64,000 bases of DNA. Origin: Streptomyces sp. NBC_01210. Lineage in GTDB: Bacteria > Actinomycetota > Actinomycetes > Streptomycetales > Streptomycetaceae. A program made the translations under genes and the position numbers. Shown here in pieces: positions 39,704-42,462 of the stretch. The DNA lies in assembly GCF_036010325.1 (NCBI RefSeq), contig NZ_CP108549.1, forward strand, positions 5,642,001 to 5,706,000, read 5' to 3'. The stretch's first letter is position 1, and every line of letters begins with the position of its first letter. The notes below the pieces were generated by a model. The model saw nothing but the letters and a program-made list of their open reading frames with translations. It had not been told where the DNA came from and made no database searches.

Positions 39704-40690
39704 TTACGCGGTGGCGTCGCCGCTGCGGCGGCGCTTCATCGCGAAGACGACACCGGCACCGGCGACGATGGCGATGCCACCGGCGATACCGACGGTCGGC
39801 AGCATGGAGCTGGAACCGGTCTCGGCGAGTTTGCCGGTGACCGGGATCTCCTTGGAGCCACCCTGCGGCTTGACGTCCTTCGGCTTCTCACCGCTCGGCT
39901 TGGCGTCGTCGACGTCGCCCGCGCTGCTGCCGGCCTTGAGAACGTCGAACTCGTAGAACTCGCTGTCCTCGAAGCAGTCCTCGCCCTTGTCGTAACCGCC
40001 GGCGGCGAGGGCGATGCCCTTGCCCGCAGGGGCCGCCTTGTCGATGCGAACGCGCAGCTTGATCGAGCGCTTCTCGGCCTTCTTGAGGTCGATCACGTCG
40101 AAGTAGAAGCCGTTGTTCATTCCGGAGAGGTTGCCGCCCGCCTTCCACTCACCGGACGACTTGTCGAAGTACTCGAAGTGCGCGTACTTCTCGATCAGGC
40201 GGTCCTGCTCGCCGCCGATCAGGTCGTCCTCGTACGAGGCGAAGGTGAAGAGACCGAAGTTCTCGATCTTCTCCGTGCTGTTGTTCTTGACGTCCAGGCT
40301 GAACTTCTTCCAGCCACCGCCCGCGACGATCTTGTTCGGGAAGCCGGAGAGCTTCACGTCGACCGCGGACGCCTTGCACTCGAAGTCCGGGTCCTCGTCG
40401 CCCTCGCCCGGCTCGCCGGCGGTGGCGCTCGGCGTCGCGGCGGCCGAGCTCGCGGGGGTGCTCGGCGTCGCGGCGGGCGAGCTCGGGGTGTTGGCCGGCG
40501 CGCTCGGCGTCGTGGCCGGGGTGCTGCTCGGCGCCTCCGACGGGGCGCTCGGCGACTGGGACGGGGTGGTGCTCGCCGTCTCGGTCGGCGTCGGCGACGG
40601 GTCCGCGAACGCGGCCGGAGCCGACAGGAGCGCGGCGGGTGCTATGACAGCGGTCGCTGCAGCGACGGCCATAGCGCGGCGAAGCTTCAT
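39704..40690 (-). CDS. Sortase-anchored surface protein (LAETG)
   Basis: 328 residues; ATG 40690 with TGAGG upstream. Signal peptide with basic start (MKLRRAM) and cleavage near AAFADPS. A Ser/Thr/Pro/Ala-rich stalk of about 85 residues follows, then a globular domain of about 150 residues with two Cys (FECKASAV and GEDCFEDSE). The C-terminus carries LAETG, a hydrophobic helix and MKRRRSG: a complete sortase sorting signal of the LAxTG type used by actinobacterial class E sortases. The protein would be linked to peptidoglycan. No sortase gene is in the window; the domain's function is unknown. Confidence 0.9.
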   Translation of the reverse strand: MKLRRAMAVAAATAVIAPAALLSAPAAFADPSPTPTETASTTPSQSPSAPSEAPSSTPATTPSAPANTPSSPAATPSTPASSAAATPSATAGEPGEGDEDPDFECKASAVDVKLSGFPNKIVAGGGWKKFSLDVKNNSTEKIENFGLFTFASYEDDLIGGEQDRLIEKYAHFEYFDKSSGEWKAGGNLSGMNNGFYFDVIDLKKAEKRSIKLRVRIDKAAPAGKGIALAAGGYDKGEDCFEDSEFYEFDVLKAGSSAGDVDDAKPSGEKPKDVKPQGGSKEIPVTGKLAETGSSSMLPTVGIAGGIAIVAGAGVVFAMKRRRSGDATA

Positions 40691-40938
40691 TAAGACCTCA
40701 GTGAAGTCCGGCGTACCGCATGACGCGGCACGGAGTCTGGAGGGCCTACCGAGGTGGGGGTACACGGGTGAGGCCGTTGTTTCGCATGCATGACCTGTGA
40801 CCAGCATGAATAGTTGCCCTGAGACTCACAGAATCTTTATGTGACAGCCGTCACACGCAACCTTCTCCTCCTGGCCCGGGTCGAACTCGTCGTGCCTTCC
40901 GGTCCCTTGCCGTCCCCCGGCAACTTCAACACCCACTG

Positions 40939-41920: not shown

Positions 41921-42202
41921 TCAGATCCGGCCCCGGCAGAGCTCGAGCAGCGTCATCGCGAGCGCCGTTCCCGGCTTTCCGAGCGCGTCGCGGAAATGGC
42001 TGAGAACCTCCATTTCGCGCGACAGACTCACCCGGCGGCCGCCGGAGGAGATCCGCGCTTCCTGGATGACGGCCGAGACGGCCATCCGCTCCTGGATCAG
42101 CCCGATGATCCGGTCGTCGAGCGTGTCGATGCGGCTGCGGGCGTCGCCGATGAGGGAGGCGGCCTCGTCGGTACGGGCTCCGGTGTCGGTCGTGACGGTC
42201 AT
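41921..42202 (-). CDS. Chorismate mutase (AroQ type, monofunctional)
   Basis: 93 residues; ATG 42202 with AAGGAG seven bases upstream. Helical AroQ fold: an Arg/Asp-rich first helix (IGDARSRIDTLDDRIIGLIQERMAVS), the ARISSGG loop, and RVSLSREMEVLSHFRDALGKPG. It ends LLELCRGRI. It converts chorismate to prephenate, the branch point to Phe and Tyr. The 5' region holds a Phe/Tyr leader ORF and a terminator hairpin, suggesting control by aromatic amino acid supply. Diverges from guaA. Confidence 0.93.
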   Translation of the reverse strand: MTVTTDTGARTDEAASLIGDARSRIDTLDDRIIGLIQERMAVSAVIQEARISSGGRRVSLSREMEVLSHFRDALGKPGTALAMTLLELCRGRI

Positions 42203-42259
42203 GCGGGGCTCCTTGCCGGGGTCGGTGCCCCGGAGCGGCAAGGCCCGGAAATGACAGAA

Positions 42260-42286
42260 CGCCCCGGGCCTTGTCGGCCCGGGGCG
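42260..42286 (-). terminator. Attenuator terminator in the chorismate mutase leader
   Basis: An 11-bp perfect stem, CGCCCCGGGCC with GGCCCGGGGCG, around a five-base loop. In the minus-strand direction it is followed by the T-rich TTCTGTCATTT. It lies after the leader ORF and before the chorismate mutase ribosome binding site. The upstream arm contains CGGGCC, which can instead pair with GGCCCG inside the leader ORF (42338-42343), giving a possible antiterminator. Confidence 0.75.
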
Positions 42287-42310
42287 CCTGGGAAGTTGCT
42301 TGTCAGTGGC

Positions 42311-42382
42311 TCAAGCAGCACGACCATGGCAGCCGGACGGGCCGGTGCCATAGGTAAAGACGAAGGTCAGCTGCTTGTGCAT
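42311..42382 (-). CDS. Predicted 23-residue leader peptide with Phe-Val-Phe-Thr-Tyr
   Basis: ATG 42382 to TGA 42311-42313, reading MHKQLTFVFTYGTG then PSGCHGRAA. GGGAGG lies 12 bases upstream. Two Phe and one Tyr codon within five codons, directly upstream of a terminator and a chorismate mutase gene, is the layout of an amino-acid attenuator (compare E. coli pheL). Within the leader, CAAGCAGC (42370-42377 on the minus strand) can pair with GCTGCTTG (42312-42319), and the latter can also pair with CAAGCA after the stop (42297-42302): mutually exclusive stems. Function is inferred. Confidence 0.65.
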   Translation of the reverse strand: MHKQLTFVFTYGTGPSGCHGRAA

Positions 42383-42462
42383 GGGTGGAGTATGGACCTC
42401 CCGCCGTCCGCGGCCAAAACCGGGTTCGGATGGTGAGACGAAAAGCGGGTCCGCCACGCCGG

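Follow-up and report, generated by a model that had tools for sequence, protein, structure and literature searches.

Upstream of a chorismate mutase (CM) gene in Streptomyces sp. NBC_01210 lies a short open reading frame (ORF) with closely spaced phenylalanine and tyrosine codons, followed by a terminator hairpin. Does this region act as a ribosome-mediated attenuator and, if so, which of its codons would set the switch? The original prediction, made from a 64,000-nucleotide stretch of this genome (hereafter, the window), had proposed a Phe/Tyr attenuator here, in which stalling at the aromatic codons favours readthrough into the gene.

Leader ORF, terminator and chorismate mutase gene

The 23-codon ORF with its F-V-F-T-Y run, the 11-bp terminator and the CM gene are all present on the minus strand in the order that had been claimed, and are preceded by a CATACT hexamer. 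The features, with the evidence for each, are as follows.

42389..42394, minus strand: -10-like hexamer CATACT, 6 nt 5' of the leader ATG
42311..42382, minus strand: leader ORF of 23 codons, MHKQLTFVFTYGTGPSGCHGRAA and stop; read from the sequence, conserved in Streptomyces
42365..42377, minus strand: segment 1, the 5' strand of the predicted protector helix, with its partner at 42325-42312; folding, partner-permutation test
42350..42364, minus strand: control codons F7 V8 F9 T10 Y11 (TTC GTC TTT ACC TAT); folding-model switch point, codon constancy
42326..42351, minus strand: predicted hairpin H1, ATGGCACCGG/CCGGCTGCCAT, within the leader ORF; folding, pair counts at the third Tyr base
42312..42344, minus strand: predicted antiterminator 5' strand, the leader 3' half; folding, partner-permutation average
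42275..42302, minus strand: predicted antiterminator 3' strand, overlapping the terminator 5' arm; folding, partner permutation
42260..42286, minus strand: terminator hairpin of 11 contiguous bp; terminator scan, folding, both arms recognisable in a 57-row alignment
42259-42249, minus strand: T-rich tail TTCTGTCATTT of the terminator; mediocre, the window's U tract being poor
41921..42202, minus strand: chorismate mutase gene, 93 aa, ATG at 42202; Pfam CM_2 and NCBIfam NF005894
42512-44107, plus strand: divergent gene with GMP synthase domains; domain match

The encoded protein matches Pfam CM_2 (E 1.6e-7) and the NCBIfam chorismate mutase family NF005894 (E 1.3e-34). As for the terminator, the claimed stem holds with 11 contiguous base pairs, and the T-rich tail attributed to it is present but mediocre. 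The terminator scan is weak on its own, since the single site found in 1.4 kb compares with 0.5 expected from shuffles; the fold of the 183-nt leader has a z-score of -4.42, and 0 of 200 shuffles were equally good. At the level of sequence, conservation is the decisive argument against chance. A chance terminator was rejected, as was an antisense feature of guaA, because the conserved order ties the element to the CM gene.

Elsewhere in the same genome there are two CM_2 places. A rough scan for ORFs with at least two F, W or Y residues 5' of the Pfam match gave no convincing F/Y leader before the class II DAHP synthase, the prephenate dehydratase or these two further CM genes of Streptomyces sp. 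NBC_01210; four such ORFs with GTG starts were found, and none carried an F/Y run.

Two side observations concern the neighbourhood. Between the terminator and the CM start (42203-42259, minus strand) there is a strong predicted hairpin that pairs the likely Shine-Dalgarno sequence, with AAGGA paired at 0.78 in one locus (L004) and at an uncontrolled mean of 0.70 over 59 scorable loci. Further along the minus strand, 39704-40807 encodes a secreted-looking protein that ends in LAETGSS, a hydrophobic stretch and a basic tail; it has no Pfam match at E <= 0.001, and its end resembles the motif of sortase-anchored proteins.

Conservation of the leader and its control codons

Within the genus, 195 of 199 genomes contain the CM protein. 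Of 90 Streptomyces loci examined (30 taken along with the CM search, 60 chosen down the match list), 89 have a leader ORF with an F/Y run before the gene; in the last, L063, the contig ends too near the gene. Core and in-frame start were likewise found in 79 of 80 named loci, a set that probably overlaps with the 90 and comprises 78 Streptomyces, one [Kitasatospora] papulosa and one Actinobacteria bacterium; the other locus, L225, is cut by a contig end. A covariance model built from 24 leaders (R1) gave hits at E <= 0.01 in 166 of 200 family genomes, spread over 17 of 17 genera; weak matches among these may be bare terminators, which are worth about 28 bits alone. In the same sample, the genome under study and 60 others of its genus all matched at E <= 5.6e-20, and at least two genomes of the genus had no match among those listed. 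R1 matches were weak or absent in one genus (g14, around G343). A search there with the CM of a sister genus (L149) gave a match, of 32-42% identity, in 3 of 25 genomes, which suggests that the orthologous CM gene is missing; going by these searches, the leader is absent as well where the gene seems to be lost. Outside the family, CM leaders occur in three genomes of three families (L163, L169, L170), with Pfam CM_2 in all three.

Where would transcription begin? In 84 of 89 Streptomyces loci, a CATACT-like hexamer stands 6 nt (54 loci) or 7 nt (30 loci) 5' of the leader's start codon. Spacing of this kind is what is usually seen when transcription begins at the start codon, and the position of the hexamer thus suggests that transcription starts at or near the leader ATG, that is, that the leader ORF is leaderless. 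A start downstream of 42311, which had been named as evidence that would count against the attenuator, is not indicated by this putative promoter. The conserved form of the hexamer is CATACT-like; a TANNNT reading was tried and failed in 64 of the 89 loci. Passages of a study of S. lividans attenuators report leaderless leader peptides there (PMC8079986).

Within the leader peptide, the first residues vary but the core TTTACCTATGGC hardly does. From the start codon to the control TTT of the core the distance is 18, 21, 24, 27 or 33 nt (111 leaders), a multiple-of-three spacing that is partly built in because the leaders were selected as in-frame ORFs; what this adds is that every length has its in-frame start, placed after a CATACT-like hexamer. 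Three leaders (L040, L065, L142) change frame past F-T-Y-G and retain the downstream nucleotides, and L227 has the same peptide change. It follows that the tail is conserved as RNA and the aromatic codons as codons.

The codons themselves are strikingly uniform. Two codons before Tyr, all 111 CM leaders (110 distinct sequences) have the Phe codon TTT, against 14 of 325 Phe codons in background ORFs, and the Tyr codon itself is TAT in 110, against 30 of 281; for the background, 27 long ORFs with high GC3 were selected mechanically from the window. The constancy of TAT is explained by the pairing of its third base in hairpin H1, where U-A was counted in 107 of 114 CM leaders, U-G in 1 and C-G in 3. 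The control TTT (42358-42356, minus strand) lies outside the predicted pairs, and pairing does not account for its constancy; slow wobble decoding as the cause is our guess.

Alternative pairings and the position of the ribosome

In the ribosome-free fold of the window, segment 1 pairs with the 3' end of the leader around H1. The folding thereby recovers the pairing claimed between the leader start, CAAGCAGC, and the leader end, GCTGCTTG, and it equally returns the claimed alternatives, in which GCTGCTTG pairs with a downstream CAAGCA and a GGCCCG in the leader pairs with the CGGGCC of the terminator. With a ribosome placed on the Phe codons, the leader 3' half is predicted to pair with the downstream stretch and the terminator 5' arm in a long interrupted helix. 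The model would thus refine the original picture, in that the antiterminator may be one long interrupted helix that uses the leader 3' half. Protector, antiterminator and terminator are predicted to be mutually exclusive, as had been proposed, and the partners co-vary on average.

Column counting on an alignment of the leaders (A1) gave little covariation, because most pairs are invariant. We therefore turn to a partner-permutation test, in which strands were swapped among 57 leaders in 2000 permutations and relatedness was ignored. Cognate strands paired better than permuted ones for the duplex of segments 1 and 2 (-19.51 vs -16.62 kcal/mol), the whole antiterminator (-25.71 vs -23.89 kcal/mol) and the upper antiterminator (-10.51 vs -9.40 kcal/mol), with 0 of 2000 permutations as good in each case. 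Leader by leader, the own partner was better than the average other in 31 of 57 leaders for the upper stem and in 33 of 57 for the whole antiterminator, a split that is expected if most leaders share one sequence type. For Streptomyces alone (38 leaders) the upper stem gave 32 of 2000, and the segment 1:2 duplex and the whole antiterminator 0 of 2000; for the 19 non-Streptomyces leaders, all three pairings gave 0 of 2000. Compensatory examples include GCTTG/CAAGC in the window, GTTTG/CAAAC in L011, GTCTG/CAGAC in L146, L148 and L155, and GTGTG/CACAC in L153. The comparison with relatives that had been suggested as a check thus finds the Phe/Tyr codons and the stems retained, compensatory changes included.

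Two measures place the switch on the aromatic codons in the folding model. Over 84 of 87 leaders (three were not parsed), the mean occlusion of the terminator 5' arm is 0.88 with the A site at TTT, 0.86 at the first Phe codon, 0.69 at Tyr, 0.69 with the ribosome at the stop codon and 0.45 with no ribosome; in L009, L042 and L055 the antiterminator wins even in the ribosome-free state. The equality of the Tyr and stop-codon values makes derepression by Tyr alone doubtful, and speaks against a simple picture. A further refinement of the original prediction is that stalling at the second Phe codon (TTT) is predicted to be most effective, and stalling at Tyr less so.

The other measure is the free-energy gap between the antiterminated and the terminated form at each ribosome position. 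Its minimum falls within F-x-F-T-Y in 87 of 87 Streptomyces leaders (at codon -2 relative to Tyr in 69, -1 in 17 and -3 in 1), and in 22 further leaders, of which nearly all belong to other genera, it lies at -2 (7), -1 (12) or 0 (3). For 19 DAHP-synthase leaders, described below, the positions are -3 (6), -2 (10), -1 (2) and +6 (1), and of two CM leaders from other families (L163, L170) one has its minimum at -1 and the other at +9. The folding model thus performed less well outside the family, judging from this pair and from 1 of the 19 DAHP-synthase leaders. Varying the footprint edge from 9 to 17 nt left the minimum at -3 to +1 (24 leaders). In the window, the gap at Phe9 is 9.7 kcal/mol, and 0 of 200 leader shuffles reach either the value there or the contrast; the minimum is reached somewhere by 2 of 200. 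This 9.7 kcal/mol is the best gap in the window, where the terminator is the more stable form in every modelled ribosome state, so the readthrough decision must be kinetic.

We consider it highly probable that the element works by classical ribosome-mediated transcription attenuation and responds chiefly to charged tRNA-Phe, with tRNA-Tyr in second place. The attenuator reading with Phe/Tyr stalling thereby gains support, from conservation and from the switch point of the model. We infer the start site, termination, stalling and amino-acid response from what was computed, namely the anatomy, the conservation, the co-varying partners and the model switch point. Transcription would start at or beside the leader ATG. 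With Phe and Tyr ample, the ribosome would reach the leader stop codon and cover the leader 3' half; with no ribosome near, segment 1 and H1 would hold that half. Covered or held, it would leave the terminator to form, and chorismate mutase would not be made. Under shortage of Phe (or Tyr), the ribosome would stall on F-V-F-T-Y, covering segment 1 and the 5' arm of H1; the freed leader 3' half would then pair with the stretch just downstream, including the terminator 5' arm, and polymerase would read through into the CM gene.

Sister leaders, rival explanations and known systems

A search of 394 genomes of the class with R1 gave matches at E <= 0.1 in 159 of them, many being bare terminators, and the full-length matches came mostly from another family, f17. 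The f17 leaders read, for example, MQRNFWRFYGYRP or MRTAFWFWYGDGP, and the gene downstream is a DAHP synthase (Pfam DAHP_synth_1, E 6.6e-78 in L158 and 7.8e-77 in L314, the latter from family f8). Such leaders were found at 28 loci, 27 of them distinct (L158-L162, L164-L168, L172-L177, L192-L194, L314, L324-L328 and L331-L333), which belong to f17 plus one f8 genome. An RNA model of the DAHP-synthase leaders (R2) has a sole match at E <= 0.001 in the present genome, which is the window's CM leader (52.4 bits, E 2.9e-10). The further loci with R1 or R2 matches (L138-L197 and L314-L333, 80 with L193 = L332, second-copy and weak matches being included deliberately) comprise 79 distinct ones, with CM downstream in 25, DAHP synthase in 27 and neither in 27. 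Of those with neither, the ones inspected were mostly hairpins after unrelated sequence, along with a tRNA-like locus (L318) and a Thr-rich leader (L317).

The Thr-rich leader is a side observation in its own right. In L317 (genome G590), from 801 on the reversed locus, the leader MQRAFVTTTPESPPAR contains several Thr codons in a row and is accompanied by a terminator; the gene that follows codes for a class II tRNA synthetase (Pfam tRNA-synt_2b, E 4.2e-33), by eye the threonyl-tRNA synthetase. In S. lividans, thrL lies before thrS, according to passages of PMC8079986.

The two sets of leaders share a core with TTT, TATGGC and ACCGG, an H1-like hairpin, a GC-rich terminator, a -10-like hexamer 5' of the start and the cross-match of R1 and R2. 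Unlike the CM leaders, those before DAHP synthase combine all three aromatic residues: codons 4-12 include W, F and Y together in 26 of 27 distinct DAHP-synthase leaders, whereas 3 of 111 CM leaders have a Trp codon in the control window. This distribution fits the pathway, because CM leads to Phe and Tyr only and DAHP synthase to all three; the comparison is essentially one of two lineages and therefore not of many independent events. We tentatively entertain, as a real possibility that we would not yet call probable, that a single ancestral attenuator has been put to use at two steps of aromatic biosynthesis in actinobacteria. At the CM step it would carry Phe and Tyr codons (Streptomyces family, a few other genomes) and at the DAHP synthase step Phe, Trp and Tyr codons (another large family), the codons being rewritten per node; the decisive Phe codon, a wobble-read TTT in all CM leaders, would look as if tuned to slow decoding.

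Other explanations must account for the same observations. The leader peptide itself, rather than an empty tRNA, might stall the ribosome, possibly once free Phe or Tyr has bound as a ligand, much as TnaC arrests with free Trp, and the RNA switch would then be the same. The very constant F-x-F-T-Y-G and the common peptide end GCHGRA are what such nascent-peptide arrest would lead one to expect; however, the residues preceding F7 vary in kind and number, the frameshifted leaders lose the peptide tail while keeping its nucleotides, H1 accounts for the glycine and much of the tail, and the DAHP-synthase leaders have different residues, Trp among them, all of which leaves peptide arrest very unlikely. 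Alternatively, the hairpin may only damp readthrough or yield a small RNA, with no sensing of amino acids. Such a constitutive leader or terminator agrees with the modelled thermodynamics, which favour the terminator in all states, but it sits badly with the conserved alternative pairing, the co-varying partners, the switch point on aromatic codons and a codon content that matches the controlled gene, and we give it very little credence.

A riboswitch that binds Phe, Tyr, chorismate or prephenate, with translation not needed, could draw on the strong nucleotide conservation, which includes the unpaired TTT. Against it, an in-frame start follows the -10-like hexamer at near-fixed spacing whatever length precedes the core, and Rfam covariance models gave 0 matches at gathering score in six loci (L004, L141, L158, L163, L169, L170) and sub-threshold hits only in the window; we regard a metabolite riboswitch as exceedingly improbable. 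A T-box or known riboswitch was rejected, given no Rfam match at gathering score.

Ribosome-mediated attenuation, the reading we prefer, is a well-known type of switch. E. coli pheL-pheA, according to passages of PMC11802643, likewise attenuates via Phe-charged tRNA at the chorismate mutase step, but pheA encodes a fused chorismate mutase-prephenate dehydratase, and Rfam gives no gathering-score match to the CM leaders. The Streptomyces trpE, trpS, leuS and ilvB leaders, in the parts of the literature that describe them, also have leader peptides, several of them leaderless, with terminators after; they differ in carrying Trp, Leu or branched-chain codons, and trpL1 before trpE belongs to the other branch from chorismate.

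The original prediction had held that attenuators are rarely documented in actinobacteria at this step, and the papers searched agree: the nearest documented case is C. glutamicum aroR, before aroF rather than CM. That system is likewise an actinobacterial aromatic attenuator, with Phe-Tyr-Phe in its peptide, but it controls a DAHP synthase gene and is compared here by description, not by sequence. Passages of PMC11802643, on Neshat 2014, state that it is induced by limitation of Phe, not of Tyr, and a passage of a small-RNA paper mentions Phe-Tyr-Phe before C. glutamicum aroF (PMC4046766). Excerpts of a 2005 survey report that phenylalanine and tyrosine operons of Actinobacteria showed no conserved RNA structures; the eight S. 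lividans leader peptides from RNA-seq, as passages of PMC8079986 present them, include none for Phe or this CM gene; and in a study of S. clavuligerus with 150 premature transcription units, "chorismate" is absent from the main text (PMC8269248). No description of this CM attenuator was found in the titles, beginnings of abstracts and main-text passages searched.

The CM leader would thus be a further case of classical ribosome-mediated attenuation, marked by an unusually uniform control codon and by related leaders upstream of DAHP synthase genes. If the proposed mechanism is true, the Phe/Tyr branch from chorismate in Streptomyces would be controlled like the trpE branch, each outlet responding to the amino acids it supplies. 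Many natural products draw on chorismate and the aromatic amino acids, and removing or resetting the leader would therefore be a concrete engineering handle. As a family without an Rfam match, these leaders may also show cleanly how sensing codons are exchanged between attenuators, and could serve to examine why a rarely used synonymous codon stays invariant.
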